64,000 bases of DNA from NCBI GenBank assembly GCA_014268975.2, contig CP077096.1, positions 2,579,501 through 2,643,500 of the forward strand, in the 5' to 3' direction. Within the stretch, counting starts at the first letter, position 1. The number at the start of each line of letters is the position of its first letter. Both the position numbers and the translations under genes were made by a program. Under the pieces are notes generated by a model. It had not been told where the DNA came from. It was given only the letters and a program-made list of their open reading frames with translations, and did not search any database. Of this stretch, positions 39,487-53,718 are shown piece after piece. Source of the stretch: Pseudomonas wayambapalatensis. Its GTDB lineage: Bacteria > Pseudomonadota > Gammaproteobacteria > Pseudomonadales > Pseudomonadaceae.

Positions 39487-42400
39487 TCAATAGGGCACCG
39501 ACCCGCACAGTGTCTCTATGGCCTCGACCAGGTCGTCATAGCCCACCGGTTTGTTCAGGTGGCGGTCGAAGCCCGACTGGCGTGAGCGGTACTGGTCGGC
39601 GCTGGCGCCGTAGCCGGTCAGGGCAATGGCCGGTGTGTAGCGCAGGTGTTCCAGGCCCCGTAGCGCCTTGATCAGGGCATGACCGTCCATTACCGGCATG
39701 CCGATATCGGACAGGATGATCTCGTAGCGTCCGTCGGCGGCGGCCTCGAGCGCTGCTTGCGGGTCGCTGTAGGCCTCGACATTCGCACCTTCCATCTCCA
39801 GCAACTGCTGCATGACCTCGAGGATTTCCTTCGAGTCGTCTACCAGCAGCACCTTGATACCATCCAGGCGTCCGTCGCTGGCCTGCTCGGGAGCATCTGG
39901 CGTGGCCTGGCGCTCGGGCGCGCACAACGGCAGGGAGACGGTGAAGGTGGTGCCGCAACCAAGCCCCGCAGAATACGCCGCGACCGTCCCGCCATGGGCC
40001 TCGACCAACTGGCGCACCAGCGACAGGCCGATACCCAGCCCTTCGCGGCTGTTGCCGGACAACTGCGGTGCGGCCTGGGTGAACAGGTCGAAAACGCTCT
40101 CGAGGCTATCCTCGGTCAGCCCCACGCCCTGGTCGATCACCTCTAGCTGGGCCTGGCTGTCTCGCCTGGCGAGCACCACGCGAATCTCGGTGCCTGCGGG
40201 GCTGAACTTCAAGGCGTTGTTCAGGAGGTTCCAGATGATCTGCTCGAGCCGCGTGCCATCGGCCTCGACGTGAACGGGCGCGCCATCGGCCGGCAACACC
40301 AGGCGCACGGTGCAAGTATGCTGCTCGTTGAGCACCACCGCATGGATCCCCTGCAGCACTGCGCACAGGTCGATCACCTCGGTCTTGAGCTTGAGCTTGC
40401 CGGTGCGGATGCGGGCGACATCGAGCAGGTCGTCGATGATTCGTGCCTGACTGGATACCGCATCACAGATGATCCCGACCGCCTTGCTGGCGGCACTGGC
40501 GGACTTCACCGAGGGCGAGCGCCGCAGGATCTCGGCGTTGAGCTGGATCAGGTTCAGCGGGTGCTTGAGTTCGTGGGACATGACGGCGAAGAACTCGTCC
40601 TTCATGTGGCTGCTGCTCTGCGACTCGGCCAGTTGCTTGCTCTGTTCGTCGTGCAGGCGCTTGTGGCCGGTGAGGTCGCGGGCGATCTTCACGTAGCCGC
40701 GCAGGCTGCTGCCCTTGAGGCGGGACACTTCGCCGCTGCAGTAGAAGCGGCTGCCATCCTTGCGCACGTGCCAGCGCTCGTCCTGGCCGCGGCCATGGAG
40801 GCGGGCGCTGCGCAGCTCGCGCTCTGGCACACCGCTGGCCTGGTCCTGCTCGGTGAAGATCAGTTGGTAGTGGTGGCCGAGGACTTCGTCCTTGCCATAG
40901 CCGAAAATCAGCGCGGCACCGGTATTCCAGTCAGTGATCAGGCCGTGTTCATCAAGCAGGATGATGGCGAAGTCATGGGTGCTTTCCGCTACCAGGCGCA
41001 TGCGTTCCTCGCCCTGGCGCAAGCGTTCCTCCGCGGCGCGGCTCTGGCTGATGTCGATGAAGGTCAGTACGGTGCCATCGACATTGCGCTCGCTGGCCCG
41101 GTAGGGCAGCAAGCGGGCCAGGTACCAGTGCTGGTTGTGGCCGACCACCTCGCGTTCGATAGTGGTCTCGCGCTCGACCACCGCACGGGCGTCGTCGGCC
41201 AGGCCAGGGTAGTCGAGACGATGGGTGATATCGAGTAGCGAGCGCCCGGTGTCCACCGGCAGCATGCTGAAGATGTCCGCGGCGCGGGGCGTGAACCAGC
41301 GGATGCACAGGTTGCGGTCGACGAAGACCGTGGCGATGTCGGTCGAGGCGATCAGGTTGCTGAGGTAGTCGTTGACCTTGTCGGTCTCCTCGACCTTGGT
41401 CTTGAGCTCGTAGTTGACCGTCAGCAATTCTTCGTTGATCGACTGCAGCTCTTCCTTGCTGGTTTCCAGTTCCTCGCTGGCCGAACGCAGCTCCTCGTTG
41501 ATCGCTTGCATTTCCTCGTTGGAGGCAGTCAGCTCCTGGCTGGAAAACTCCGATTGCTCAATGGTCTCCTGCAGTTGCAGCCGCGTGCGATGCAGTTCGC
41601 GCTCCAGGTTGCTCAACACCATGCCTTCGGTCTGCTCGACGGCGGCGCTGGTACTGGCGCTGCTGTCGACTTCGATCGCCTGGAACACCACCAGCAGGCA
41701 GTCGGTGCCACTGGGGTCGTCCTGGTGCGGCTGCACCAGGATTTGCACGGCCGTGGGATGTTCGTCGAGGCTGACCGAGACACTGCGCGAGGTCACCGCC
41801 TGGCCGCTGCCTTGCGCCTGCAGCAAGGTACTGCGCAAGGCCGGTCGCAACGGCGCGATGATCAGGCTGAGCAGGTTGTGGCTGAGCTCGCCACCGGCGT
41901 GGTGCAAGAAGCGCCCGACACCTTCACTCATGTGCAGGATATTGCCCTCGGTATCGATCACCAGGCTGGGCGGCGTGCAGCGGGCGAGGGCGCGGTGATG
42001 GATCTCGGCGTAGGACAAGCGGCGACTGCTGCGTGCGCGAGCCGGTGGTGCGAGCGCAGGCTCCGGGGCCTGCAGGCGCGGCGGATGGCTGGTGGTCTGC
42101 ACTTCCCGGGCGCGGAAGATGCGGTTGCGTTTGTCCACGGCGACGAACAGGTCGGCCGCAAGGTCCGTCGACTCGGAGCTGCCAAGGAACAGATGGCCGC
42201 CTGGACGCAGGGCGAAATGGAACAGGCGCAGGATATCGCGCTGCACCTCGCGGTCCAGGTAGATCAGCAGGTTGCGGCAGACGATCAGGTCGAGCTGGGA
42301 GAATGGCGGATCGGACAGCAGGTTGTGACGGGCGAACAGGACCTTTTCCCTGATTTCCTTGCGCACCCGCAAGTGCTGGTCCTCCTTGATGAAGAACTGG

Positions 42401-43614
42401 CGCAGGCGTGCCGCCGACACGTCGGTGGCGATGGCGTCCGGATACCGGCCGGCGCGACCGATGTTGATGGCGCGTTCGTCGAGGTCGGTGGCGAATACCT
42501 GTACTTGGGCGCTGCGCTGTTCCACCGCCAACTGCTCGGTCACCAGCATCGCCAGGCTATAGGCCTCCTCGCCGGTGGAGCAGCCTGCTGACCAGAGGCG
42601 TACCTCGTGCGCGGACTCTTCACTGGCATCCTTGTTGACCAGGCCCGGCATCACATGGCGCTGCAACGCCTCGAACGCCTCGCGATCGCGGAAGAAGTTG
42701 GTCACTCCGATCAGCATGTCGGCCAGCAGTGCCCGCGACTCCTCCGGGTGGTGCTGCAGGAAGTCGAGATAGCCGGCCAGCTCTGTCTGGCCGGTGACAT
42801 GCAGGCGGCGTTCCAGGCGGCGCAGTACGGTGGCGCGCTTGTAGTGGCTGAAGTCGTGTCCGGTCTCGCCTTGCAGCGTCAGCAGGATCTCATCCAGCAG
42901 CGGGTCGCTCGCCGCCGGATCACCCTCGCGCTCTCCCAATGGCGGCGGCAGGCTGTCGTCTTCGATTTCCGGCAGTTTCACCTGGCGCGCCGTGCGCCAC
43001 AACTCGACCAGGCGCGCAGGCATTTCAGCTACTGGCAGCAGCAGGTCAACCATGCCGGTGGCCAGCGCCGCACGGGGCATGTCGGGGTACTCGGCATCAT
43101 CGGGTGCCTGCACCAGGGTCACGCCACCTTGTTCCTTGATGCGCGACAGGCCTACGGCGCCGTCGCTGCCGGTTCCCGAGAGCACCACGCAGAATGCATG
43201 GTCCTTGTGCACGTCGGCCAGGTCGCGAAAGAACAGGTCGATGGCCACATGATCGCCGCGGCCGCGCTTGGCTGGGCTGACCCGCAGGTAGCCGTCGTTG
43301 GTCGACAGGCGATTGGCTGGCGAGATCACGTAGACATGGTTGCGTTCGATCGGCACCGGCTCGCTGACCTGGCGTACCGGCATGCGGGTGACCGCCTGGA
43401 TGATCCGGTCAGCCTGGCTCTGGTGATGGGGGGAGAGGTGCAGGACGACAACGAACGCCATGCCGGAGTCGTCCGGGGCGTGCCGGAAGAACCGGCGGAT
43501 CGCTTCCAGGCCGCCGGCCGAGGCGCCGATGCCGACCACGGGGAAACCCAGATGGCTGGGGCTGAGCGCCGGATTGTGCGGCGAGGCGAGGGACGGTTTG
43601 CTGGACGACTTCAT
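39487..43614 (-). CDS. CheB-CheR-PAS-histidine kinase-receiver fusion protein
   Basis: A 1375-residue soluble protein. Domains in order: CheB methylesterase (~25-215; Ser in GIGASAGGLEA, His in VLHLSPHH, Asp in GTGSDGAVGL); CheR methyltransferase (~235-490; SAM loop WSAGCSTGEEAYSLAM); a PAS-like region (~590-690); a long Gln/Glu coiled coil (~715-800, QELTASNEEMQAINEELRSA); two PAS domains (~805-1020); HisKA with phospho-His in MSHELKHPLNL; an HATPase; and a receiver with phospho-Asp in ILSDIGMPVMDG. No CheA/MCP genes are adjacent. Such fusions pair glutamyl (de)methylation domains with a kinase; targets are unknown. The ATG at 43614 has an AAGG box; earlier in-frame codons look untranslated. 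Confidence 0.9.
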   Translation of the reverse strand: MKSSSKPSLASPHNPALSPSHLGFPVVGIGASAGGLEAIRRFFRHAPDDSGMAFVVVLHLSPHHQSQADRIIQAVTRMPVRQVSEPVPIERNHVYVISPANRLSTNDGYLRVSPAKRGRGDHVAIDLFFRDLADVHKDHAFCVVLSGTGSDGAVGLSRIKEQGGVTLVQAPDDAEYPDMPRAALATGMVDLLLPVAEMPARLVELWRTARQVKLPEIEDDSLPPPLGEREGDPAASDPLLDEILLTLQGETGHDFSHYKRATVLRRLERRLHVTGQTELAGYLDFLQHHPEESRALLADMLIGVTNFFRDREAFEALQRHVMPGLVNKDASEESAHEVRLWSAGCSTGEEAYSLAMLVTEQLAVEQRSAQVQVFATDLDERAINIGRAGRYPDAIATDVSAARLRQFFIKEDQHLRVRKEIREKVLFARHNLLSDPPFSQLDLIVCRNLLIYLDREVQRDILRLFHFALRPGGHLFLGSSESTDLAADLFVAVDKRNRIFRAREVQTTSHPPRLQAPEPALAPPARARSSRRLSYAEIHHRALARCTPPSLVIDTEGNILHMSEGVGRFLHHAGGELSHNLLSLIIAPLRPALRSTLLQAQGSGQAVTSRSVSVSLDEHPTAVQILVQPHQDDPSGTDCLLVVFQAIEVDSSASTSAAVEQTEGMVLSNLERELHRTRLQLQETIEQSEFSSQELTASNEEMQAINEELRSASEELETSKEELQSINEELLTVNYELKTKVEETDKVNDYLSNLIASTDIATVFVDRNLCIRWFTPRAADIFSMLPVDTGRSLLDITHRLDYPGLADDARAVVERETTIEREVVGHNQHWYLARLLPYRASERNVDGTVLTFIDISQSRAAEERLRQGEERMRLVAESTHDFAIILLDEHGLITDWNTGAALIFGYGKDEVLGHHYQLIFTEQDQASGVPERELRSARLHGRGQDERWHVRKDGSRFYCSGEVSRLKGSSLRGYVKIARDLTGHKRLHDEQSKQLAESQSSSHMKDEFFAVMSHELKHPLNLIQLNAEILRRSPSVKSASAASKAVGIICDAVSSQARIIDDLLDVARIRTGKLKLKTEVIDLCAVLQGIHAVVLNEQHTCTVRLVLPADGAPVHVEADGTRLEQIIWNLLNNALKFSPAGTEIRVVLARRDSQAQLEVIDQGVGLTEDSLESVFDLFTQAAPQLSGNSREGLGIGLSLVRQLVEAHGGTVAAYSAGLGCGTTFTVSLPLCAPERQATPDAPEQASDGRLDGIKVLLVDDSKEILEVMQQLLEMEGANVEAYSDPQAALEAAADGRYEIILSDIGMPVMDGHALIKALRGLEHLRYTPAIALTGYGASADQYRSRQSGFDRHLNKPVGYDDLVEAIETLCGSVPY

Positions 43615-43690
43615 GGCATCAGCCTTGTTCGGACCTGGAAATGGCCTGGGGCGAATCGCCGGGCACTGGGCGCAGATTATAGGCTGGCGC

Positions 43691-43918
43691 TCACTTTGGC
43701 GATGAGCGGTTGCCCTCAAGGAGGGCCAGATGCTCGATGGCCTCCTGATAACGCTCGGCTGCCTTGCGCCGCAGCTCCTGGTAATGGCCGAAGTCGAAGG
43801 CGTCGAGCCCGACGCCTTCGAGTAGGGCAAAGGCTGCGCGGTCGAGTTCATAGGCGCTGGCGAACAGCCGGCGATTCTGCTCCAGAGCGAGCTGTTGGCA
43901 GGCGCGGGTCATGGGCAT
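43691..43918 (-). CDS. Small soluble helical protein of unknown function
   Basis: A 75-residue protein (MPMTRACQQLALEQNRRLFA and a helical remainder with ELRRKAAERYQEAIEHLALL). Two ATGs lie six bases apart at 43918 and 43912; GGAG stands 5 bp before the first. It lies 76 bp upstream of the hybrid kinase on the same strand and could be co-transcribed with it. On its other side it is divergent from the light-regulon arm; the TGTACA boxes lie about 160-200 bp upstream of it, so it could also respond to that regulator. I do not recognise a family. Confidence 0.6.
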   Translation of the reverse strand: MPMTRACQQLALEQNRRLFASAYELDRAAFALLEGVGLDAFDFGHYQELRRKAAERYQEAIEHLALLEGNRSSPK

Positions 43919-44074
43919 GGGAGCTCCGGTAGCCGAGGTGGTATTCAGACCTATGACTACCGCGCAGGCAAATAAGTGCGAACGTTTTGACCGGATAGCT
44001 CGACCGGCAGCTCTTTTCGATTTCGGCTGCGACCAACGACTGTGCCCGTGGCTTGGAGGCGAATGGCAAAAAAC

Positions 44075-44119
44075 TGTACATGCCAATAAAATATCTGTAC
44101 ATCATGCTATCTTTGTACA
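44075..44119. promoter_or_regulatory. Three TGTACA boxes: LitR/PplR-type operator upstream of the + arm
   Basis: TGTACA occurs at 44075-44080, 44096-44101 and 44114-44119. The second and third are separated by exactly 12 bp, which fits the T(G/A)TACA-N12-TGTA(C/T)A consensus I recall for class II LitR (PplR) proteins of P. putida. The boxes end 25 bp before the start of the chalcone-isomerase-like gene, so a bound protein would cover its promoter. The same arrangement recurs at 52150-52224 upstream of the opposing arm. Confidence 0.75.
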
Positions 44120-44144
44120 GTATTGGGCCGCGCTTGAGGTCAAT

Positions 44145-44681
44145 ATGGTTCACCGTGCTCGTTGGACGTGCCTTTGCCTGCTGATCGTTGCGTTTTCGGC
44201 GACGGCGGACTGGCGCTCGCAGTTGCCCGGTGCGCAGCGGTTGGGTGCGGGTGAGTTCACTTGGTTCGGCCTGCGTCTTTACACCGCCCAGCTATGGACG
44301 CTGGCGCCGGCGCTGGACTGGAACCAGCCGTTCGCCCTCGAGCTTCTCTATCACCGGTCGTTGTCCAAGGACACGCTGGTACAGGCCAGCCTCGAGGAAA
44401 TGCATCGTCTCAACGCTGGCGGCATTGCGCCGCAGCAACGCCCGGCTTGGACCCAGGCGCTTGAAGCGGCATTCGTGGACGTGCGCCCCGGGATGCGAAT
44501 TACAGGCTTGTACCTGCCGGGGCAGGGTTGCCGCTTTTACGTCGACGGTGAATTGAGCCGCGAAATCACTGACCCGGCCTTTGCCCGGGCGTTCTTTGCC
44601 ATCTGGCTCGATCCACGTGCCAGGGATCCACAACTGCGTCAGCGCCTGCTCGGGCTGGCTGGCAGTGAACGAGGACGCTGA
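44145..44681 (+). CDS. Chalcone isomerase-like exported protein
   Basis: A 178-residue precursor with a signal peptide (ARWTCLCLLIVAFSATA-DWR). The mature part matches the bacterial chalcone-isomerase-like domain: GAQRLGAGEFTWFGLRLYTA near the start, ALELLYHRSLSKDTLVQASLEEM-type central helices, and FFAIWLDPRARDPQLRQRLL at the end. Bacterial members probably bind fatty acids or similar hydrophobic ligands rather than chalcones. The ATG at 44145 has TGAGGT 4 bp before it and lies 25 bp after the TGTACA boxes. It is the first gene of the + arm, followed after 2 bp by the DUF3833 gene. Confidence 0.85.
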   Translation: MVHRARWTCLCLLIVAFSATADWRSQLPGAQRLGAGEFTWFGLRLYTAQLWTLAPALDWNQPFALELLYHRSLSKDTLVQASLEEMHRLNAGGIAPQQRPAWTQALEAAFVDVRPGMRITGLYLPGQGCRFYVDGELSREITDPAFARAFFAIWLDPRARDPQLRQRLLGLAGSERGR

Positions 44682-44683
44682 AT

Positions 44684-45220
44684 ATGTACAAAGCACTGTT
44701 GCTGGCGTTGTGTCTGCTTCTGGGCAGCTGTGGCAATGTCGGGGTCGAACGCTATGCCCAGGAGCAGCCCAAGCTCGACCTGGTGGCGTTCTTCTCGCGG
44801 CCGGTACAGGCCTGGGGGATGTTCCAGAAGCGCTCCGGTGAGGTAATCAAGCGCTTTCATGTGCGCATCGATAGCCGTCGTGAAGGTGAGCATCTGATCC
44901 TCGAAGAACATTTTCTGTACAGCGATGGCACCCGTCAGGAACGCACCTGGCGGTTAGTGCCCGACGGCCCTGGCCGCTGGCGCGGAACGGCGGGGGACGT
45001 CATTGGCGAGGCGAGGGGGGAAGTGGCGGGTAACGCGTTGCGCTGGCGTTATCAGCTTGACCTGCCTGTCGATGGGCGTAACTGGCAAGTGGACCTGGAC
45101 GACTGGATGTACCTGATGGATGACGACACCCTGATCAATCGCTCGAGTATGAGCAAGCTGGGCGTGGAAATCGGCCAGATCACCCTGTTCTTCCGCCGCC
45201 TCCCGGAGAGTACGCCGTGA
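44684..45220 (+). CDS. DUF3833 lipoprotein
   Basis: A 178-residue lipoprotein precursor: KALLLALCLLLGSCGN has a lipobox LLGSC with the acylated Cys at residue ~17. The DUF3833 domain follows (KLDLVAFFSRPVQAWGMFQK, RWRLVPDGPGRWRGTAGDV-type strands, and the WMYLMDDDTLINRSSMSKLG stretch). It is probably a lipocalin-like lipid-binding protein anchored in a membrane facing the periplasm. It occurs next to cryptochrome/CFA-synthase genes in many proteobacteria, as it does here. It overlaps the next gene by 4 bp (GTGA). Confidence 0.88.
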   Translation: MYKALLLALCLLLGSCGNVGVERYAQEQPKLDLVAFFSRPVQAWGMFQKRSGEVIKRFHVRIDSRREGEHLILEEHFLYSDGTRQERTWRLVPDGPGRWRGTAGDVIGEARGEVAGNALRWRYQLDLPVDGRNWQVDLDDWMYLMDDDTLINRSSMSKLGVEIGQITLFFRRLPESTP

Positions 45221-45522
45221 ACCTGGTCACGCTGTTTCAATGGGTCACGACCGGCGAAGCGAAGGCGCTGGAACTGCTGTCGCTGGAGGGCGGCTTCTAC
45301 CTCCTGCGTGCCTTGACCGACGCTGGCCCCGTGACTCTCAACGATGCCCATGGGCAGCCCCTGCGCGTGCGCTCCACCACCGAGCTACGCCAGTTGCTGA
45401 CGGGCCTGCCATCCGTGCCCTGCACGCTGGTGCAGCACGTGGTACATGATGAGATGTGCGGGCAACGTGACGGCCCCATCGAACCGCTGCGCGTCCCGAT
45501 AACGCTCGCCAGCCAGTGGTAG
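45217..45522 (+). CDS. Unknown 101-residue protein of the light-regulon operon
   Basis: The GTG at 45217 overlaps the DUF3833 stop by 4 bp. The protein has no signal peptide or membrane helix. It contains TTGEAKALELLSLEGGFYLL and a central LDRRWP-free segment LNDAHGQPLRVRSTTELRQLL, resembling the small 'DUF6482-like' helical proteins, though I cannot confirm that. The next reading frame (cryptochrome) opens 9 bp downstream, so it is firmly within the operon. Its constant position between a lipoprotein and a photolyase-like gene hints at a role in the light response, but no function is known to me. Confidence 0.6.
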   Translation: MNLVTLFQWVTTGEAKALELLSLEGGFYLLRALTDAGPVTLNDAHGQPLRVRSTTELRQLLTGLPSVPCTLVQHVVHDEMCGQRDGPIEPLRVPITLASQW

Positions 45523-45530
45523 GCGAAACG

Positions 45531-47057
45531 ATGCGCCTGGGCCTGGTGCTGGGTGACCAGCTGTCGTTCGACCTGGCGAGCCTGAGCGCTCTCGATCCTG
45601 CCCGTGACGCTATCTTGATGGCGGAGGTGGAGGGTGAGGCCCGGTACGTGCCGCACCATCCACTGAAGATCGTTCTGATTTTCAGCGCCATGCGGCACTT
45701 CGCTCGGTGCCTGCGCGAGCGGGGTTGGCAAGTGCACTATGTCGAGCTCGATGCTGCAGGCAACAGCGGCAGCATCGTTGGCGAGTTGTGTCGCTGGCAA
45801 CAGGCCTTGGGCGCCACGCAGATCCACCTGACCGAGTGCGGCGAGTGGCGTCTGGAGCAGGCATTGCGTGATGCCGGGTTGCCGCTGGTGTGGCACCGTG
45901 ACCGGCGTTTTCTGTGCTCGCGCGAAGCCTTTGGGCGCTGGGCCGCTGAGCGGCGCCAACTGCGCATGGAGCACTTCTACCGTGGCATGCGCAAGCGCAC
46001 CGGCCTGCTGATGGAGCTCGATGGCAGCCCGGCAGGTGGAGCCTGGAATTTCGATGCCGACAATCGCAAGCCGTTGCCGCGTCAGCTACGTGGCCCATTC
46101 GCTGCGCATTTTGCGCAGGACGAGATCACAGCAGCGGTGCAGGCGCTGGTAGGTCAGCGCTTCAGCGACCACTACGGGGCCACCGACGGCTTCGACTATC
46201 CAGTAACCCATGCCCAGGCCCAGCAGCTCTGGCAACACTTTCTAGAGTTTGGCCTGGCGGCTTTCGGGGACTACCAGGATGCGATGGCCGAGGGCGAGCC
46301 GTATCTGTTTCATGCACGTATCAGTGCAGCGCTCAACATCGGGCTTCTGGATGTGCGTAGCCTGTGTGAAGACGTCGACAGGGCGTGGCGCGAGCGGCGA
46401 GTGCCGCTCAATGCAGCCGAAGGCTTCATCCGCCAACTGATAGGCTGGCGCGAGTATGTGCGCGGGATCTATTGGCTGCGCATGCCGGAGTACGCCGGGC
46501 TCAATCACCTGGGCAACGAGCGGGCGTTGCCGGAATTCTACTGGACCGGGCAAACCCGTATGCGCTGCATGGCGCAAGCCATCGGGCAGACCTTGCGGCT
46601 GGGTTACGCGCACCACATCCAGCGGCTGATGGTGACCGGAAACTTCGCCTTACTGGCAGGTATCGTGCCGACGGCGATTTGTGAGTGGTATCTGGCGGTC
46701 TACATGGACGCTTTCGACTGGGTCGAGCTGCCCAACACGCTTGGCATGGTGATGCATGCCGACGGTGGCTACCTTGGGTCCAAGCCCTACTGTGCGAGTG
46801 GTCGTTACATCCAGCGCATGTCCGACCATTGCGCGTCTTGCAGTTACCGGGTTGGCCAGGTAACCGAGGAGGATGCTTGCCCGTTCAATGCCCTGTACTG
46901 GCATTTTCTCATTCGCCATCGCACCGTGCTTTCGGCTAACCCGCGGCTGGCGCTGGCCTATCGTGGGCTCGATGGCATGTCGGCCAGCCGTCGCGATGCC
47001 GTATGGCAACGCGGCCAGTCATTGTTGGCGCGACTGGATGCCGGGCAGCCGATATGA
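45531..47057 (+). CDS. Iron-sulfur bacterial cryptochrome/photolyase (CryB/PhrB-related, FeS-BCP)
   Basis: A 508-residue protein of the 'deoxyribodipyrimidine photolyase-related' family. [20 protein letters not shown] is the antenna-domain start. The FAD-binding helical domain includes [20 protein letters not shown] and [20 protein letters not shown]. Four cysteines of the [4Fe-4S] cluster are visible: YC in [16 protein letters not shown], then HC and SC in [12 protein letters not shown], and AC in [12 protein letters not shown]. Members repair (6-4) photoproducts or act as cryptochromes and bind a ribolumazine antenna. An upstream GTG (45516) is possible; the ATG at 45531 matches the family start. 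Its stop overlaps the DUF2256 ATG. Confidence 0.92.
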
Positions 47058-47236
47058 AAAAGAGCCTGTTGCCCAGCAAGATCTGTGTGGTCTGTGGCCT
47101 GCCGTTCAACTGGCGCAAGCGCTGGGCGCGCTGCTGGGAACAGGTGCGCTATTGCTCTGAGCGATGCCGCAGGTCAGCGCCACGCCGCCAGGCGCAAGAG
47201 CAGGGGCAAGGTGAAGGCCCAGATGGGCGCCAGTAG
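47054..47236 (+). CDS. DUF2256 zinc-finger-like small protein
   Basis: A 60-residue protein: [20 protein letters not shown] then [10 protein letters not shown] gives C-x2-C, a single C and C-x3-C, a compact zinc-binding pattern that defines DUF2256. It is basic and usually follows a cryptochrome gene, as here, where its ATG overlaps the cryptochrome TGA by 4 bp. A role with nucleic acid or as partner of the photolyase is inference. Its 3' end overlaps the opposing DUF2878 gene by 63 bp (47174-47236), a convergent coding overlap. Confidence 0.85.
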
Positions 47237-47662
47237 CAGGCCGGTTTCCAGCGTGCCCAAGGGCAATCCCACCCCGGCCAGCCTCGCGCCCGCCAAGTAA
47301 GCCAGTGGGCCGCTGATTGCGCCCAGCAGTGCACCGAGCCGCCAGTCCCTGGCGATCCATGCCAGGCTGTGGCGCATGCCGCTGGCCAGCACCAGCCACA
47401 GCAGCGCGAGCCACAGTGGCAGCGGCCAGGCATCGAACGCGAATACCCCCAGCGCTCCCAGCACCGTATCAAGCAGGCAGCCGGCCAAGGTAACGCGCCA
47501 CAGCGCCTTGAACTCGCCGCTGTCGTCCCGGCTCAGGCGCAGGTGCACGCCCAGGCCGAGGATCACCAGCAGCAAGAGCCAGGGCCGTTCTGCACCCAGT
47601 ACGCAGGCCCACCAGCCGACCTGCAACCAAAGGGCATTGGCGACCAGCCTGCCGCCGTGCAT
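47174..47662 (-). CDS. DUF2878 membrane protein
   Basis: A 162-residue inner-membrane protein with about five hydrophobic helices ([57 protein letters not shown] and two more), the DUF2878 pattern. The ATG at 47662 overlaps the TGA of the CFA-synthase-like gene by one base, making it the last gene of the minus arm. It accompanies cfa-like, DUF1365 and FAD-oxidoreductase genes in many proteobacteria. The function is unknown; a membrane part of the lipid-modifying pathway is an inference. Confidence 0.85.
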
Positions 47663-48927
47663 CAGGCATGGCCTGGCAAGGGCGCACGACGTGCCTGGGG
47701 CGCGGCCAACAGCAGGTGGGCAACGCCGATGGCGCGCTCCTCGAAGCCGCCTTGGCAGTAGCACAAGTAGAATTCCCACAGGCGCTGGAACATGTCGTCG
47801 TAGCCCAGGTCGGCCAGCGCCGTGCGTGCCTGACGCAGGTTTTCCCGCCAATGCTGCAGGGTGAGGGCGTAGTCCTGGCCGAAATCCTCCATATGTACAA
47901 GGTTCAGCGCAGTGTGCCGGCTGGCAGTGTCGAGCATCACGCTCAGCGAAGGCAGGGCGCCTCCGGGGAAAATGTAGCGCTGGATGAAGTCCACCGAGCG
48001 CCGTGCCTGGTCGTAGCGTTGGTCGCGAATGGTGATGGCCTGCAGCAGCATCAGGCCATCGGGCTTGAGCAGCGCGGCACACTGGCGGAAGTACACCGGC
48101 AGATAACGATGGCCGACCGCTTCGATCATCTCGATCGATACCAGTTTGTCGAAACGGCCTTCCAGGTCGCGGTAGTCCTCGCGAAGTACCGTTATGCGCT
48201 GCTCCAGGCCCAGCGCCCGAACGCGGTCCAGGGTATGGCTGTACTGCGCTTCGGAGAGGGTGGTGGTGGTAACCCTGCAGCCGTATCGGGTGGCGGCGTG
48301 AATCGCCAGGGAGCCCCAACCGCAGCCAATTTCCAGCAGGTGATCGTCAGGGCATAGCTCAAGTTTCTGGCAGATGCGCTCCAGCTTGTTCACCTGAGCG
48401 TGTTCCAGTGTCTGCCCGGGATGCTCGAACTGGGCTGCCGAATACATCATGGTGGGGTCCAGCAGCCGCTCGAACAGGGCGTTGCCGAGGTCGTAGTGCG
48501 CCAGAATGTTGCGTCGGGCACCGCGCCTGCTATTGCGGTTGAGCCGGTGCAGCAGCCGCAGGGCAGGGCGGCCGAGGCGCGCCAGGCCGCCCTCGAGCGC
48601 GTCGAGCACTTCAAGGTTGGCGACGAACAGGCGCGTCACCCGCGCAAGGTCCGGGCTGCGCCAATAGCCGTGGATGTAGGCTTCGCCAGCACCGATCGAG
48701 CCATTGCCGGCGATCAGGCTCCAGGTGGCGTCATCGAGCACCTCCACCTCGGCCTGCAACGGGCTCTCGGTATCGCCAAAACTCCACTGCTGGCCGTGGC
48801 ACAGCAGGCGCAAGTGACCGTGGCGCAGCTTGCCCATTTGGGCGAGCACGGCGCTTCGTGCCAGACCGCCGAGCAACGGCGCAAGGCCGGCGAACTTGCT
48901 AACGCTCAGGGTGTGATTCGACATCAT
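47662..48927 (-). CDS. Cyclopropane-fatty-acid-synthase-like SAM methyltransferase
   Basis: A protein of ~421 residues of the CFA/mycolic-acid methyltransferase family. The SAM-binding loop is HLLEIGCGWGSLAIHAATRY (~200-219). RNILAHYDLGNALFERLLDP and TMMYSAAQF (~140-165) match the lipid-binding N-domain boundary. SIEMIEAVGHRYLPVYF lines the active site. It methylates the double bond of acyl chains in membrane phospholipids. Its neighbours DUF1365, FAD oxidoreductase and SDR resemble the light/singlet-oxygen clusters tied to unusual (furan or methylated) fatty acids. Two ATGs are adjacent (48927, 48924) after a GAGG box; it overlaps the DUF1365 end by 29 bp. Confidence 0.9.
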   Translation of the reverse strand: MMSNHTLSVSKFAGLAPLLGGLARSAVLAQMGKLRHGHLRLLCHGQQWSFGDTESPLQAEVEVLDDATWSLIAGNGSIGAGEAYIHGYWRSPDLARVTRLFVANLEVLDALEGGLARLGRPALRLLHRLNRNSRRGARRNILAHYDLGNALFERLLDPTMMYSAAQFEHPGQTLEHAQVNKLERICQKLELCPDDHLLEIGCGWGSLAIHAATRYGCRVTTTTLSEAQYSHTLDRVRALGLEQRITVLREDYRDLEGRFDKLVSIEMIEAVGHRYLPVYFRQCAALLKPDGLMLLQAITIRDQRYDQARRSVDFIQRYIFPGGALPSLSVMLDTASRHTALNLVHMEDFGQDYALTLQHWRENLRQARTALADLGYDDMFQRLWEFYLCYCQGGFEERAIGVAHLLLAAPQARRAPLPGHA

Positions 48928-49708
48928 TCGTGTCCTCGCAGGAGTGGCCGAGCGCCAAGTGATTCTGGCGGGCAGTGTGGTCATGGATGGGGGTGCGTTT
49001 GAACAGCAGGCGCAGTGCCTGCCAGTAGATAGCCGAGAGGGTGCGCAGGCTCATCCACGGGAAGGCCAGGATGTATCGATGCAGGCCGGCGCGGTCCAAA
49101 GGCTGGCGCTGCAAGGCGAGGTCTGCCTTGAACACCGTGCGCTCGTGTTGCCGGTTCTCCATATGGATACGTATATGTTGCGCATCCAGGGAGAAGCGAA
49201 AGCGATAGTCCATGTCCAGTGGCATGAACGGCGACACGTGGAAGGCCTTCGCCACCGTGAAGGGTGTGCCGAGGTTGTCGTGCACCGGCAGCACGTAGTG
49301 GAAGCGTTCACGCCAGGGGGTGTTTCGTACTTCCAGCAGGATCGCCACCAGGTTCGCGTCGCGGTCATGGCAGAAATAGAAACTCACCGGGTTGAACGAC
49401 AGCCCCCAGCAGCGCAGTTGCGTGAGCAGGTGGACCGGGCCTTCGGGCATATCCCCCGTGGCCTGGCGGACGATCAAGCGCGCGGCCTGTGCCAGCGTCT
49501 GTCCCTGCTGGGTCAGCGCTGGCAGGTAGTCGGTCTGGCGAAAGCTGAGCGGTGCCAGGCGCCAGCGCCCTAGCCAGCGTGACAGGCTCATCAGCCAGGT
49601 TTGCTCGTCCAGATCCAGGTAGAACATGCCTGTTCGATAGCGGAACGCGTGGGCGCGCGGCGTCAAGCGACGGTGGCTGATCCAGCCCAGGCAGAGGCTG
49701 CTGTTCAC
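48899..49708 (-). CDS. DUF1365 protein
   Basis: A 269-residue protein of the DUF1365 family: SLCLGWISHRRLTPRAHAFR at the start, LLTQLRCWGLSFNPVSFYFC (~95-114) and FHVSPFMPLDMDYRF-type motifs. The start is a GTG (49708) overlapping the TGA of the FAD oxidoreductase gene. DUF1365 proteins have no established activity; they nearly always sit between an amine-oxidase-like flavoprotein and a CFA-like methyltransferase, as here, which suggests a step on acyl chains of phospholipids. Confidence 0.9.
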   Translation of the reverse strand: MNSSLCLGWISHRRLTPRAHAFRYRTGMFYLDLDEQTWLMSLSRWLGRWRLAPLSFRQTDYLPALTQQGQTLAQAARLIVRQATGDMPEGPVHLLTQLRCWGLSFNPVSFYFCHDRDANLVAILLEVRNTPWRERFHYVLPVHDNLGTPFTVAKAFHVSPFMPLDMDYRFRFSLDAQHIRIHMENRQHERTVFKADLALQRQPLDRAGLHRYILAFPWMSLRTLSAIYWQALRLLFKRTPIHDHTARQNHLALGHSCEDTNDVESHPER

Positions 49709-50952
49709 AGCTGCACCCCGAAATGCGCGGCCACCTTCAGCGCACTGACCACACCGTCCTCGTGAAAACCATTTCCCCAGTAGGCACCACAGAAGTAGCT
49801 GTGCTGCTGGCCTTGCAGCTCTGACTGCCGAGCCTGCGCCGCGGACGCGGCGAGGCTGTACTGCGGATGGGCGTACTGAAAGCGGGCAATCACCTGCGCA
49901 GGGTCTATCAATGCGGTCTGGTTGAGGCTCACGCAGAAGGTGGTCGGTGCCTGGATACCTTGCAGGATATTCATGTTGTAGGTCAGCGCGGCGGGAGCCT
50001 GCTGTGGGCCTCCCAGGCGGTAGTTCCAGCTCGCCCAGGCGCGCTTGCGGCGCGGCAGCAGGCGGGAGTCGGTGTGCAGTACGACATCGTTGCTGGCGTA
50101 GCCGATGGCCCCGAGCACGGCACGTTCCTGTGTGCTGGGGCTTTCCAGCATGGCCAGGGCCTGGTCGCTATGGCAGGCGAACACCACGGTGTCGAAGCGT
50201 TCGGTGCCGGCTGCGCTCACGACGGTCACGCCACCTTCGTCGCGGCTGACCCGGTGAACCTTGCAGTCCAGGCGGATGCTGTCAGCGAAGGGGCGGCACA
50301 GTGGTGCGATGTAGCTGCTCGAACCACCTTTGATGACCCGCCACTGTGGACGGTGGTTGACCGACAGCAAGCCGTGGTTGCGACAGAAACGGACGAAGAA
50401 CTCGAGGGGGAAGTGGAGCATGTCGGCGCGGGACATCGACCAGATGGCCGATCCCATCGGCACGATATAGTGGTCGATGAAGCGCTGCCCATAGCCCTGC
50501 GCCTGAAGGTAGCTACCCAGCGTGGTGTTGGCATCGATACGCTGGCTGTCCAGGTCGGTCAGTGCCTGGCGGTTGAAGCGCAGAATATCCCGCAGCATTC
50601 CCCAGAAGCCTGGGGAGATCAGGTTGCGGCGTTGTGCGAACAGTGTGTTCAGGTCGTGGCCATTGTACTCAAGGCCTGTGGCCGGGTCATGCACGGAAAA
50701 ACTCATTTCGGTGGGCTGTGAGGTGACCTTGAGCTGGTCGAGCAGCCGAATGAAGTTGGGGTAGGTCCAGTCGTTGAACACGATGAAGCCGGTGTCTATT
50801 GCATGGCGCTGGCCCTTCCAGACCACATCGAGGGTGTGTGTGTGGCCACCGATCCAGCGCTCGGCTTCGAAAACCGTGACCTGGTGGTTGCGCGACAGCA
50901 GATGGGCGCAAGTCAGCCCGGCGATGCCGCTGCCGATGATTGCTATACGCAT
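49705..50952 (-). CDS. FAD-dependent oxidoreductase (amine oxidase/desaturase-like)
   Basis: A 415-residue flavoprotein starting RIAIIGSGIAGLTCAHLLSR, an N-terminal FAD Rossmann motif (GxGxxG). GGHTHTLDVVWKGQRHAIDT and TGFIVFNDWTYPNFIRLLDQ are typical of the branch linked to DUF1365 and CFA-like genes; PFADSIRLDCKVHRVSRDEG is mid-protein. In similar clusters such flavoproteins act on fatty-acyl chains, for example as desaturase-like enzymes in furan-fatty-acid formation, but that link is inferred from context. It overlaps DUF1365 by 4 bp and is 3 bp from the SDR gene. Confidence 0.9.
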   Translation of the reverse strand: MRIAIIGSGIAGLTCAHLLSRNHQVTVFEAERWIGGHTHTLDVVWKGQRHAIDTGFIVFNDWTYPNFIRLLDQLKVTSQPTEMSFSVHDPATGLEYNGHDLNTLFAQRRNLISPGFWGMLRDILRFNRQALTDLDSQRIDANTTLGSYLQAQGYGQRFIDHYIVPMGSAIWSMSRADMLHFPLEFFVRFCRNHGLLSVNHRPQWRVIKGGSSSYIAPLCRPFADSIRLDCKVHRVSRDEGGVTVVSAAGTERFDTVVFACHSDQALAMLESPSTQERAVLGAIGYASNDVVLHTDSRLLPRRKRAWASWNYRLGGPQQAPAALTYNMNILQGIQAPTTFCVSLNQTALIDPAQVIARFQYAHPQYSLAASAAQARQSELQGQQHSYFCGAYWGNGFHEDGVVSALKVAAHFGVQL

Positions 50953-50955
50953 GAA

Positions 50956-51711
50956 TCAACCTTCCTGTTCATGACGGGCGAGGCGTTGCCCCAGGGCCAG
51001 ACGCAGACGCGCCGGTAGCGCACCGAGCAGGCGCAATACACAGGTGAAAAGACCGGGGAAGTTGATTTCCACGGGGCGGTGGGGCAAGCGCCTGGCGATG
51101 TGTCGGGCGGCGCGCTGCGCACTCCACAGCTGCGGCATGGGGAAGTCGTTGCGGCGTGTCAAAGGTGTGTCGACAAAGCCAGGGCTGACCAAGGTGACTG
51201 CGATACCCTCGCGGGCCAGGTCGATCCGCTGTGATTCCATCAAATAGCGCACCGCCGCCTTGGAGGCGCCATAGGCACCGGCGCGGGGCAAGGCCAGCCA
51301 GGTCACCGAGCTGCCCATCACCACCAGGTGAGGGCGCTGGCCCTTGCGAAGCAGGGGCAGTGCCGATGCCATGCAGTAGGCGACACTGAGCAGGTTGGTG
51401 CGCATCACGCGCTCGACCAGCGCCGGATCGAACTGCCCCGGCTCCAGGTATTCGCAGGTGCCGGCATTGAGAATGACCATGTCCAGGCCTCCCCAGGCCT
51501 GTTCGATCTGCGCGGTGATCGCGGCGATATCCTCTGGGTCGTCAAGATCGCCGATGGCCAGCAGTACCTGCCCAGGAAACTGTTCGGCCAGGGGTGCAAG
51601 GCGATTGGCCTGGCGTGCGCCCAGGGCCACTTGATGGCCTTGCTCCAGCAGGATGCGAGCGAGCTCGGCACCGATACCGCTGCTAGCGCCGGTCAACCAG
51701 CAGCGGCTCAT
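50956..51711 (-). CDS. Short-chain dehydrogenase/reductase
   Basis: A 251-residue SDR: TGASSGIGAELARILLEQGH (cofactor motif TGxxxGIG at residues 8-15), LNAGTCE (NAG motif), GSSVTW with the catalytic Ser, and YGASKAAVRYL with the Y-x-x-x-K pair (~148-152). The C-terminal NFPGLFTCVLRLLGALPARL is hydrophobic and may touch the membrane. It oxidises or reduces a carbonyl/alcohol with NAD(P)(H), probably on an acyl intermediate given the operon. The ATG at 51711 overlaps the TGA of the NTF2-like gene by 4 bp. Confidence 0.9.
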   Translation of the reverse strand: MSRCWLTGASSGIGAELARILLEQGHQVALGARQANRLAPLAEQFPGQVLLAIGDLDDPEDIAAITAQIEQAWGGLDMVILNAGTCEYLEPGQFDPALVERVMRTNLLSVAYCMASALPLLRKGQRPHLVVMGSSVTWLALPRAGAYGASKAAVRYLMESQRIDLAREGIAVTLVSPGFVDTPLTRRNDFPMPQLWSAQRAARHIARRLPHRPVEINFPGLFTCVLRLLGALPARLRLALGQRLARHEQEG

Positions 51712-52130
51712 GCCAGCCTGCCTTTGAGCCAGCGGATTGCGCCGCCCATGATCGGAAGGTGTTCGTAGATGAGGGCGCCGGCGTCGAAATAGTCCTGGTG
51801 AAAATGCACACGGTCGCGCCAGTGCAGGCAACTGCACCCTTGCAGCGTGATCTGCCGACCCCCGGCCAGGCGTGGGTGGCGGAAGTGCAGGGTCCAGCGC
51901 AAGTAGCCCTGACCGGGGCTTACCTCGTCGGCGCTGATGAAGGCATAGCGGATATCGCTGGCGTTGGCGTACAACTGCTCGAAGTAGGCTCGCAGCGCCT
52001 GCAGGCCCTGTATGTGGTGCAGAGGGTCGCGAAAAGTAATGTCCTCGCTGTACAGGTTTTCCAGCCTGTCGAGGTTAGCGCCATCGAGACTGGCGAAGCG
52101 CTCGGCGAATTGCTGTAGGTAGGCAGACAT
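51708..52130 (-). CDS. NTF2-like (SnoaL) fold protein
   Basis: A 140-residue protein with the cone-shaped NTF2-like fold: FAERFASLDGANLDRLENLY, then SEDITFRDPLHHIQGLQALR. A late HFHQDYFDAGALIYEHLPIM carries the conserved D-Y/F-x-D-x-G. Members act as small enzymes or ligand binders. It is the first gene of the minus arm; two TGTACA-type operators end about 20 bp upstream of its ATG, so the whole arm (NTF2, SDR, FAD oxidoreductase, DUF1365, CFA-like, DUF2878) probably starts here. Confidence 0.88.
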   Translation of the reverse strand: MSAYLQQFAERFASLDGANLDRLENLYSEDITFRDPLHHIQGLQALRAYFEQLYANASDIRYAFISADEVSPGQGYLRWTLHFRHPRLAGGRQITLQGCSCLHWRDRVHFHQDYFDAGALIYEHLPIMGGAIRWLKGRLA

Positions 52131-52149
52131 GCTGGGCTCCAGGTAATCC

Positions 52150-52224
52150 TGTACAAAATATATTTGTTGTACAGGTATAGCTGAAGCCCAAGGATTAATC
52201 TATACAGATTGAGGGTTGTGTATA
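52150..52224. promoter_or_regulatory. Two LitR/PplR-type operators upstream of the minus arm
   Basis: TGTACA (52150-52155), 12 bp, TGTACA (52168-52173) makes the first site. TATACA (52201-52206), 12 bp, TGTATA (52219-52224) makes the second. Both match T(G/A)TACA-N12-TGTA(C/T)A exactly, and their centres are 51 bp apart. They fill the 100-bp gap between the NTF2-like start (52130) and the LOV stop (52231), so they should control the minus arm; the AT-rich spacers may hold the -10 element. Confidence 0.78.
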
Positions 52225-52230
52225 GATTTT

Positions 52231-52686
52231 TTAGCGCTCGTCCTGCCCGAGCTGACGGCGCAGCAGGGCCAGTTCAGCCTCCAGCTCGCGCACATTTTCC
52301 TCGGCGCAAACCTGTGCTGTCACATCGCGCTGGATGCCGATGTAGTACGTCAGCTGGTCTGCCTCGTTGTACACGGGGGTGATGGACAGCTCGTTCCAGA
52401 ACAGGCTTCCGTCCTTGCGATAGTTGCGCAGTACCTGACGGCAGGGGCTGCCATCGCGGATCGCAGCGCGGATGCTAGCGAGGCCTTCCTGGTCATGATT
52501 CTCGCCCTGCAGGAAACGGCAATCCTGATAGAGGATGTCGTCGGCGGCATAGCCGGTCAGTCGCTCGAAGGCGGGGTTGACGTAGATGAGGATGCTGTCG
52601 TCGCCCTCCTGCTCGGCAACGACGATGCCATCGTTCGAATGCTCTACCATCAGTTGAAGGAGTTTCGCGGGGATCATAGGGCCCAC
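52231..52686 (-). CDS. Short LOV blue-light photoreceptor
   Basis: A 151-residue protein made of one LOV (PAS) core with short N- and C-terminal helices. YVNPAFERLTGYAADDILYQ leads to DCRFLQGENHDQE, the LOV signature with the flavin-adduct Cys (~residue 53). RNYRKDGSLFWNELSITPVY and YYIGIQRDVTAQV are the rest of the FMN pocket. The C-terminal helix (VRELEAELALLRRQLGQ) can coil with a partner. It closely resembles the P. putida short LOV proteins (PpSB1/PpSB2-LOV). It has no output domain, so it must act through a partner, probably the MerR-type regulator encoded divergently. Confidence 0.93.
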   Translation of the reverse strand: MGPMIPAKLLQLMVEHSNDGIVVAEQEGDDSILIYVNPAFERLTGYAADDILYQDCRFLQGENHDQEGLASIRAAIRDGSPCRQVLRNYRKDGSLFWNELSITPVYNEADQLTYYIGIQRDVTAQVCAEENVRELEAELALLRRQLGQDER

Positions 52687-52830
52687 CTACAGGCGTTTTA
52701 TATGCGAGATGCGCAGATTGCTTCTATGTGGAAGACCTCGGCGCCGTTGGTTGCATGATGGACCATGGAGGCTCGCCGCAGAAAGTCCATATGAGTTTAG
52801 AATGCTCGATCTACCGGATATTCTCTGATT

Positions 52831-53718
52831 ATGACTGACACCACCCCACCCGATTTGCTACCCATGCGCGATGTGGTCAGCTTGACCGGCATCAATCCGG
52901 TCACGTTGCGCGCCTGGGAGCGGCGCCATGGGTTGATGCGCCCGCAGCGCACCGAGGGCGGCCATCGCTTGTACACCGCCCGGGATGTGCAACGCATACG
53001 CGACATCCTGCGTTGGACTGCCAACGGCCTGCCTATCAGCAAGGTCGGCGACAGGCTCGCCGGCCGGCCTGAGGCACCAGTGCAGCAGCCCTCGGCCTTC
53101 GACGAATGGCGAGACGCTGTGGTGCGTGCATCCGAGGCGTTCGATGCACAGGCGTTGGAGGGGATTCATGGCCAGTTGTTCACTCTGTTTCCCAAGACCT
53201 CCGTGCTGCGTGAAGTGCTGATGCCGGTTTGGTATGAGTTGGCGTCAGGAGCGGCTCCAGGCCAGCGTAGCCAATGGCTGTTTCTCGATACGTTCCTGCG
53301 TGCCCGCTTGCTTGCGCGCCTGCACTTGAATCAGATCCCCGCGCCGCGGGTGCTGCTGGCAAGCACCGAGGGGCACGCCGAATTCGAGGTGCTGTGCGCT
53401 GGGCTGATGTTGAGCAGCGAGCAACAGCGCATCGACGTACTGGGCTGCGGGCAGTCGTTGGAAGACTTGCCGTTATTGTGTACGGCCATGCAGCCCGCGG
53501 CGCTGGTGATAAAAGTCCAGGCGCCGGTAAGCACCGCCTTGGCCAGGCGCTTGCGGACCTTGCAGATGGACATTGCCTGCCCGCTGGCCTTGGTTGGCGA
53601 GCGGTTGGCTGATTCGCTGCACGCGTTGAGTGGAATCCCGTTGTGCCTGCTGGACGAGGGAGGCGTTGATGCTGCGCGCAGGCTGAGCGCGTTGCACCGT
53701 GGCGCGCTTGACCTTTGA
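52831..53718 (+). CDS. MerR-family regulator, class II LitR/PplR-like (no B12 ligands)
   Basis: A 295-residue regulator with an N-terminal MerR helix-turn-helix (RDVVSLTGINPVTLRAWERR, then HGLMRPQRTEGGHRLYTARD). A helical and Rossmann-like region follows, recalling the cobalamin-binding domain of CarH/LitR (LLASTEGHAEFEVLCAGLML, IDVLGCGQSLEDL). The W-x9-E-H motif that holds adenosylcobalamin in CarH is absent: the place reads SGAAPGQRSQWLFLD. Light sensing must therefore come from elsewhere, consistent with the neighbouring LOV protein. It probably binds the TGTACA-type sites in front of both arms. Divergent from the LOV gene, 144 bp apart. Confidence 0.88.
   Translation: MTDTTPPDLLPMRDVVSLTGINPVTLRAWERRHGLMRPQRTEGGHRLYTARDVQRIRDILRWTANGLPISKVGDRLAGRPEAPVQQPSAFDEWRDAVVRASEAFDAQALEGIHGQLFTLFPKTSVLREVLMPVWYELASGAAPGQRSQWLFLDTFLRARLLARLHLNQIPAPRVLLASTEGHAEFEVLCAGLMLSSEQQRIDVLGCGQSLEDLPLLCTAMQPAALVIKVQAPVSTALARRLRTLQMDIACPLALVGERLADSLHALSGIPLCLLDEGGVDAARRLSALHRGALDL

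Follow-up and report, generated by a model that had tools for sequence, protein, structure and literature searches.

Gene content of the locus

A stretch of 64,000 nucleotides from Pseudomonas wayambapalatensis (assembly GCA_014268975.2, contig CP077096.1, positions 2,579,501 to 2,643,500; hereafter the window, with coordinates counted from its first letter unless given as genome positions) carries, between positions 43,691 and 53,718, two convergent operons next to genes for a short LOV photoreceptor and a MerR-type regulator. As argued below by analogy with published systems, this stretch very probably represents a Pseudomonas class II LitR/short-LOV light regulon. This regulon is already published and is not new; what was recovered from raw sequence is a published blue-light switch.

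The LOV gene (52231-52686, - strand) encodes a 151-amino-acid short LOV blue-light receptor that consists of a PAS domain alone and contains the cysteine motif DCRFLQG, which we take to be the photoactive-cysteine motif; its best NCBIfam match is the YtvA family, with a score under that model's cut-off. The adjacent gene (52831-53718, + strand; MerR_1 E 3.3e-14) encodes a class II LitR-type MerR regulator that has a MerR helix-turn-helix (HTH) domain without a complete B12-binding module (no match at E values up to 10) and that reaches 77 bits with the CarH model versus a cut-off of 400. A PADLOC match of the HTH part of this LitR (mad1, 28 bits) was not taken as meaningful, and a repeat search of the LOV/LitR intergenic region found one weak palindrome and nothing more.

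The operon on the + strand (+ arm) starts with a chalcone-isomerase-like gene (44145-44681; Chalcone_3, PF16036, E 1.7e-12) whose product has a signal-peptide-like N-terminus, as judged by eye, and a predicted chalcone isomerase (CHI)/plant fatty-acid-binding-protein fold. It is followed by genes for a DUF3833 lipoprotein with a predicted lipocalin-like beta-barrel (44684-45220; Pfam E 4.5e-67), a 101-amino-acid DUF6482 protein (45217-45522; Pfam E 3e-16), a CryB-like FeS-type cryptochrome/photolyase with four cluster cysteines (45531-47057; PF04244, DPRP) and a small DUF2256 protein identified with Pfam (47054-47236), the 3' end of which overlaps the convergent DUF2878 gene. The cryptochrome cysteines C348, C436, C439, and C452 (numbered from the codon at 45525) fit the spacing rule for FeS-BCP proteins, in which Cys1 lies 86-89 residues from Cys2 and 12-15 residues separate Cys3 and Cys4 (PMC3204975). 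Among related loci, which are designated by L numbers, the same four cysteines occur in all five relatives read among the seven with a CRYB match (all but L002 and L004); cryB is an optional member of the arm, as it is present in L002, L004, L007, L008, L011, L013, and L046 and missing from L003, L005, L009, L014, L016, L017, L019, and L059.

The operon on the - strand (- arm) consists, in order of transcription, of genes for an NTF2/SnoaL-like protein (51708-52130), a short-chain dehydrogenase (SDR; 50956-51711), a UfaD-like FAD oxidoreductase/desaturase (49705-50952; also matched in NCBIfam; PMC7380195), a UfaO-like DUF1365 protein (48899-49708; E 3.4e-77; function of the family in PMC7380195), a UfaM-like S-adenosylmethionine-dependent fatty-acyl methyltransferase of the CMAS family (47662-48924; also matched in NCBIfam), and a DUF2878 protein (47174-47662), all identified with Pfam. 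Pfam thus confirmed the gene list of the initial annotation, except that the lipoprotein (DUF3833) is the second gene of the + arm and the chalcone-isomerase-like gene the first. The 101-residue protein, which had been listed as without known activity, could be placed in DUF6482, and the same statement about DUF1365 was wrong, as DUF1365 is UfaO (PMC7380195).

Putative furan fatty acid genes of the - arm

According to PMC7380195, UfaM, UfaD, and UfaO convert cis-vaccenate chains to the furan fatty acid 9M5-FuFA, where UfaO belongs to DUF1365 and UfaD is a desaturase that binds NAD/FAD, and the Rhodopseudomonas palustris genes RPA2569 (M), RPA2571 (D), and RPA2570 (O) were sufficient for this once moved into Rhodobacter sphaeroides. 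The - arm holds all three families together (DUF1365, an FAD-binding desaturase, and a CMAS methylase), as assigned at the family level and not by alignment to the Rhodobacter proteins, and its order of FAD oxidoreductase, DUF1365, and CFA-like genes is the ufaD-ufaO-ufaM order of R. palustris. By this analogy, the - arm would make methylated and furan phospholipid acyl chains, with 11Me-12t-18:1, 11Me-10t,12t-18:2, and 9M5-FuFA as the predicted products. An operon with the order NTF2-SDR-FAD-DUF1365-cfa-DUF2878 in Aeromonas salmonicida is listed as lowered by riboflavin (PMC10012899).

Operator sites in the window, the genome, and the genus

The + arm is preceded by a TGTACA-N12-TGTACA operator (44096-44119, + strand), which ends 25 bp before the first ATG (44145). 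Two sites precede the - arm, both on the - strand, i.e., Site 2 (TGTACA-N12-TGTACA, 52150-52173), the edge of which (52150) is 19 bp from the first ATG (52130), and Site 1 (TATACA-N12-TGTATA, 52201-52224), which ends 70 bp from the same ATG. All of these motifs, as well as an extra TGTACA at 44075, lie where the initial annotation had placed them. Its description of each set as 20-30 bp upstream of the first gene holds roughly for the nearest site of each arm and does not hold for 52201-52224; likewise, its word "identical" applies to the hexamers of two of the sites and not to their 12 intervening bases. The window sites conform to the T(G/A)TACA-N12-TGTA(C/T)A form required of a class II LitR/short-LOV regulon. 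The extra half-site (44075-44080, no strand assigned) was considered as a third operator half and dropped, as its distance differs or it is absent among relatives (N15 in the window and L005, N16 in L008, and N25-26 in L009 and L014); it has no fixed position.

Exact TRTACA-N12-TGTAYA sites outnumber those of the controls at each level of comparison: three in the window versus none in 200 Markov shuffles, five in the 5.25-Mb genome versus one for the pattern read backwards, and 519 in 149 genomes of the window's genus versus 23 for the reversed control (summed per-genome counts, those of the control added by hand), with 146 of the 149 genomes carrying at least one. All five exact genomic sites fall in light-type loci; beyond the three in the window, these are the sites at genome positions 4850779 and 4851893, both in a RudS-LitR-photolyase locus. 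When up to one mismatch was allowed, 13 sites were found in the genome versus 7 in the reversed control; because of this ratio, single-mismatch sites are mostly noise and were dropped as further operators, with the exception of 4851843, which sits 50 bp from the exact site at 4851893.

The RudS-LitR-photolyase locus (L001:4780-9926, genome 4850779-4855925) contains, in this order, genes for an FAD amine-oxidase-type protein, RudS (a tRNA 4-thiouridine desulfidase with 2-thiouracil desulfurase and DUF1722 domains), a LitR, a DNA photolyase, and an SDR, with one operator ahead of the gene for the FAD amine-oxidase-type protein and two sites (4851893 and 4851843) ahead of RudS; a PhrB-LitR-RudS operon is mentioned in PMC11417400. 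The initial annotation had proposed one regulon of two arms. Operators are indeed found on both arms; the regulon is not confined to them, as two further operator-bearing promoters are located at 4.85 Mb.

Promoter architecture

For the NTF2-like gene, a promoter can be predicted on the - strand at 52185-52212, with TCAATC (52212-52207) in the -35 place, a 16-bp spacer, TGGGCT (52190-52185) in the -10 place, and an expected start at about 52178, 48 bp from the ATG. Read along the - strand, the order is thus Site 1 with TCAATC inside, the spacer, TGGGCT, and Site 2, such that, by position, Site 1 lies over the -35 element and Site 2 between the expected start and the ATG, as in a LitR regulon. 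In Pseudomonas mendocina, transcription from the PME6650 promoter (P6650; TTGACT-N16-TATGAT) begins 48 bp ahead of the ATG (PMC9758184). On the + arm, the N12 of the operator bears a -10-like element in the window (TATCTT) and in several relatives, and this operator probably covers the -10 element of the chalcone-isomerase-like gene, as judged from sequence.

Comparison across related loci

To place these promoters in context, we used 80 loci, i.e., the best 80 of at least 585 confirmed FAD oxidoreductase relatives, which come mostly from Pseudomonas or close genera and include several metagenome-assembled genomes and contig ends, none of which were dropped; upstream regions of 19 chosen NTF2-side loci and 15 CHI-side loci were inspected closely. 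Over the 1.59 Mb of these loci, the distance from TRTACA to TGTAYA peaks sharply at N12 (156 pairs, compared with 4 at N11 and 11 at N13), and the reversed control gave a single pair over all distances from 0 to 60. The spacing of neighboring sites is 49-51 bp in 54 cases, 52 bp in one, and 18 bp in one; smaller peaks at N25-27 and N43-47 are a by-product of the site pairs 49-52 bp apart. Of the 55 two-site promoters, 47 have TTGACT in the -35 place and 36 have TATGAT in the -10 place. The operators, found in exact form in 78 of the 80 loci and with 55 pairs 49-52 bp apart, are what this analysis adds to the published regulon, together with the linkage of DUF3833 and DUF2878 to ufaO and the barrel and fatty-acid-binding-type fold predictions.

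Where the NTF2-like gene comes first (17 loci: L002-L014, L016, L017, L046, and L059), an exact site lies just upstream in 15 and two sites in 11. The 56 PmlR1-type loci have a longer operon with the NTF2-like gene in its interior; 52 of them carry a site no more than 200 bp from RudS and 41 carry two, with none at this place in L022, L028, L030, and L031. On the CHI side, 10 of the 15 loci have an exact site upstream of the chalcone-isomerase-like gene; the other five comprise two with incomplete CHI genes (L003 and L059), one with an N13 site (L011), and two with other spacings (L046 and L019). The compact layout of the window, in which LitR-LOV and NTF2...DUF2878 converge on ...DUF3833-CHI, recurs in L002, L004, L005, L007-L009, L013, and L014, with LitR-LOV displaced in L005, and L003 is a variant with an incomplete CHI gene.

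Across Pseudomonas relatives, the two-site promoter is a fixed module (operator, TTGACT-N16-TATGAT, and an operator 50 bp on). The splitting of the operon seems to have involved re-use of this module: we infer that the ufa operon once belonged to a longer RudS-LitR-phrB-ufa operon, became separated from it, and now has a copy of the two-site promoter to itself. The NTF2-like gene was dropped as the counterpart of PME6650, given that PmlR1-type loci have their operator pair before RudS and the NTF2-like gene deeper in the operon; from these loci and PMC11417400, PME6650 is probably RudS. This reassignment did not change our confidence in the regulon assignment because the promoter module matches more closely than first seen.

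Some variation in the sites was also observed. Operators with N11 or N13 in L006, L011, L013, and L046 suggest that half-site spacing is slightly tolerant. The -35 place is degenerate in the closest relatives L002-L004 as well (TCTTCT, TTAATT, and TATTTC), with the operator halves retained. A peak at N21 (17 cases) was dropped as a second operator type, since it reflects one conserved promoter in 17 Pseudomonas-type loci, i.e., a TGTACA-N21-TGTACA element ending in GCGTAGTCTGTACA that lies about 1.2-1.4 kb upstream of the RudS pair in L034, L037, L038, and 14 more; in the window genome, a diverged version precedes the FAD amine-oxidase-type gene in L001. This element probably represents an additional light promoter that comprises one and a half operators.

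Correspondence with published light regulons

The closest described system is that of P. mendocina, where the class II LitR PmlR2 protects from DNase I a region with two TGTACA-N12-TGTACA sites upstream of PME6650, one over the -35 element and the other between the transcription start and the ATG, and where substitution of both hexamers of Site 2 abolishes PmlR2 binding (PMC9758184). PmlR2 represses transcription in vitro, and blue-light-activated PmSB-LOV binds PmlR2 and lifts this repression; the nine genes PME6650-PME6610 form one operon, phrB and ufaM are up 25- to 33-fold in light by quantitative reverse-transcription PCR, and PME7070-cryB is listed as a further light-responsive unit (PMC9758184). 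The window resembles this system in operator sequence and spacing, in two-site promoter geometry, in LOV-LitR adjacency, in an operon with SDR, FAD oxidoreductase, and ufaM genes that is light-induced in P. mendocina, and in having a cryB, which is light-regulated there. It differs in that the ufa genes of P. mendocina are part of the nine-gene operon under a shared promoter, with pmlR1 and phrB in its region, whereas in the window genome the operon is split into the RudS-LitR-photolyase part at 4.85 Mb and the NTF2...DUF2878 part in the window. Both parts have a two-site promoter, and the cryB arm and LOV-LitR are neighbors of the second part. Pseudomonas putida KT2440 (PplR1-3 and PpSB-LOV) has, like the window genome, three LitRs and two short LOVs; as cited in PMC9758184, the PplR1 consensus is T(G/A)TACA-N12-TGTA(C/T)A, and the 19 light-induced genes include CryB, UfaM, PhrB, and FolE.

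Two more distant systems share parts of the locus. The Rhodobacter/Rhodopseudomonas furan pathway has the same enzyme families and, in R. palustris, the same gene order (RPA2571-2570-2569); however, the ufa genes of R. sphaeroides respond to singlet oxygen and rise upon chrR deletion, and LitR and LOV are not involved in the regulation described in the excerpted text of PMC7380195. In Vibrio cholerae, blue light raises photolyase genes and a CFA-type synthase, with a MerR protein and ChrR named as mediators, whereas a short LOV partner is not mentioned in the response as excerpted from PMC5241685.

By analogy, LitR would occupy the T(G/A)TACA-N12-TGTA(C/T)A operators in the dark, i.e., Site 1 over the -35 element and Site 2 past the transcription start of the NTF2-like gene and, for the chalcone-isomerase-like gene, a single site that probably covers the -10 element, and would thereby keep RNA polymerase off. 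Under blue light, a cysteine-flavin adduct would form in LOV, which would then bind LitR and take it off the DNA, allowing transcription of both convergent operons. UfaM, UfaD, and UfaO from the - arm would then provide methylated and furan acyl chains that protect against singlet oxygen, and the + arm would provide the FeS-type cryptochrome/photolyase and two exported lipid-binding-type proteins. LitR would thus act as a repressor and LOV as a light-dependent anti-repressor, which corrects an earlier interpretation of the locus. The blue-light programme that the initial annotation had proposed (LOV with a LitR-type MerR, acyl methylation or furan fatty acids, and a photolyase-type protein) corresponds to one shown in P. 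mendocina and reported for P. putida KT2440 (PMC9758184). The proposal is supported in its essentials and would hold here by that likeness.

Weighing of the assignment and its alternatives

We favor assignment to the LitR/LOV light regulon because operator sequence and spacing are identical to those of the DNase I-footprinted P. mendocina sites (PMC9758184), and because the 16-bp spacer and the 48 bp between the expected start and the ATG are as in P6650. Four observations weigh against it. The -35 element in the window (TCAATC) is a poor match to the TTGACT of 47 of the 55 related two-site promoters, and the NTF2-like promoter is perhaps weaker in the window lineage for this degeneracy. The window LitR gave no B12-binding_2 match at E values up to 10, although HMMER filters may drop weak matches, whereas this domain is present in the paralogue in L001 (6.4e-6) and in PmlR1 and PmlR2 (PMC9758184); the L082 paralogue reached 0.054. 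No operator with up to one mismatch was found at the third LitR/LOV locus of the genome (L082), where one two-mismatch site at 10784 lies more than 1 kb past an SDR gene of FolM type, and 11 ufa or DUF3833 loci of other families (L083-L093) yielded no exact operator.

That a TGTACA palindrome could be read by other regulators too raises the question of whether the repeats are operators of a different regulator, with the light genes adjacent by coincidence; this is very improbable, given the exact match to PmlR2 sites whose replacement abolished binding (PMC9758184) and the position of the genome's remaining exact sites in the RudS-LitR-photolyase locus. The identity of the LitR that would bind here is a closer matter. 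Since the genome holds three LitR-like regulators and two short LOV proteins, and since the three PplRs act together in P. putida and have similar HTH domains (PMC9758184), binding to the sites could fall mainly to either or both of the other LitR paralogues, with the neighboring LitR-LOV pair mainly serving other targets. We regard this as a serious possibility, if not the favored one, as LitR, LOV, and the operon with the operators are also neighbors in L002-L004, L006-L009, L013, and L014. With regard to the product of the - arm, the CFA-like enzyme belongs to the CMAS family and has a cyclopropane synthase model as its top NCBIfam match, which would be expected of an ordinary cyclopropane synthase that makes cyclopropane and not furan fatty acids; however, its best score with such models is far under the cut-off (268.9 versus 400 bits), a separate CFA-type gene (39% identity) is located at genome position 210044, and the UfaM-like gene follows homologues of UfaD and UfaO, in the same order as in R. 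palustris. A cyclopropane product thus appears improbable.

Linkage and predicted folds of DUF3833, DUF2878, and Chalcone_3

For linkage, we compared 75 genomes, each from a different family of the window's class and the window's own among them; 23 of these carry DUF1365. DUF3833 occurs in 12 genomes; 10 of these also carry DUF1365 (hypergeometric p 6e-5), in all 10 cases within 10 kb on one contig, with G204 and G206 having DUF3833 without DUF1365. For DUF2878 (13 genomes), the corresponding numbers are 11 with DUF1365 (p 1.5e-5), nine of them within 10 kb and two on different contigs, and two without (G196 and G216). Chalcone_3 was found in 21 genomes, mostly as a higher-scoring group away from DUF3833, DUF2878, and DUF1365 genes; among the eight weakest-scoring matches, seven lie within 6 kb of DUF3833, and in five of the 12 genomes with DUF3833 there is no Chalcone_3 match close to it.

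The DUF3833 model (pLDDT 93) is a beta-barrel whose first-ranked structural match is a designed barrel; calycin-type barrels (nitrobindin, DUF3598, and CpeS) follow at Z of about 13-15 and fatty-acid-binding proteins at about 9-10. For the Chalcone_3 model (pLDDT 89), the matches are chalcone isomerases, CHI-like proteins, and the Arabidopsis fatty-acid-binding protein FAP1; these Foldseek and VIA matches indicate shared folds only. The lipobox cysteine of DUF3833 is conserved in at least 90% of 24 sequences, and the lipoprotein is probably anchored in the outer membrane; in the excerpted text of a published mention of DUF3833, no function is attached to it.

DUF3833, DUF2878, and this Chalcone_3 subgroup accompany the genes for furan fatty acids in different families and are therefore concrete candidates for proteins that handle these antioxidant lipids. 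It is conceivable, if in our judgment rather doubtful, that furan or methylated acyl chains are carried or presented in the periplasm by the protein with the chalcone isomerase fold and by the DUF3833 lipoprotein, and that DUF2878 acts alongside the two; the light response would then also cover the outer membrane. If true, the + arm would be the second half of a furan-lipid system, and functions could be assigned to DUF3833, DUF2878, and the Chalcone_3 subgroup. In a locus from another family of the class (L086), matches to LOV, LitR, photolyase, CHI-like, DUF3833, UfaM-O-D, SDR, and NTF2-like proteins occur in one cluster without an exact TGTACA operator.

Neighboring genes and further observations

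The third LitR/LOV locus (L082:6121-8157, genome 4776120-4778156) has the second short LOV (72% identical to that of the window) beside the third LitR (45%). A FolM-like SDR gene is close to this pair (L082:9052-9741), and beside it a small protein (L082:9992-10381) matches a Pfam family named HopJ (E 1e-36; family name only).

At the tail-to-tail junction of the two arms (47174-47236), the DUF2256 (+) and DUF2878 (-) genes have 63 bp in common, including their stops, and neither a terminator nor a sigma-70-like promoter was found between the converging ends (46900-47500). By gene coordinates, comparable convergent overlaps of 36-63 bp exist in L002, L007, L008, L013, and L046. On the other side of the + arm, a small - strand open reading frame (43691-44086; no Pfam match for 43694-43933, the part tested) is divergent from the arm and could share its operator region, and a large open reading frame for a CheB-CheR-PAS-histidine kinase-receiver hybrid (39487-43851) adjoins the arm.

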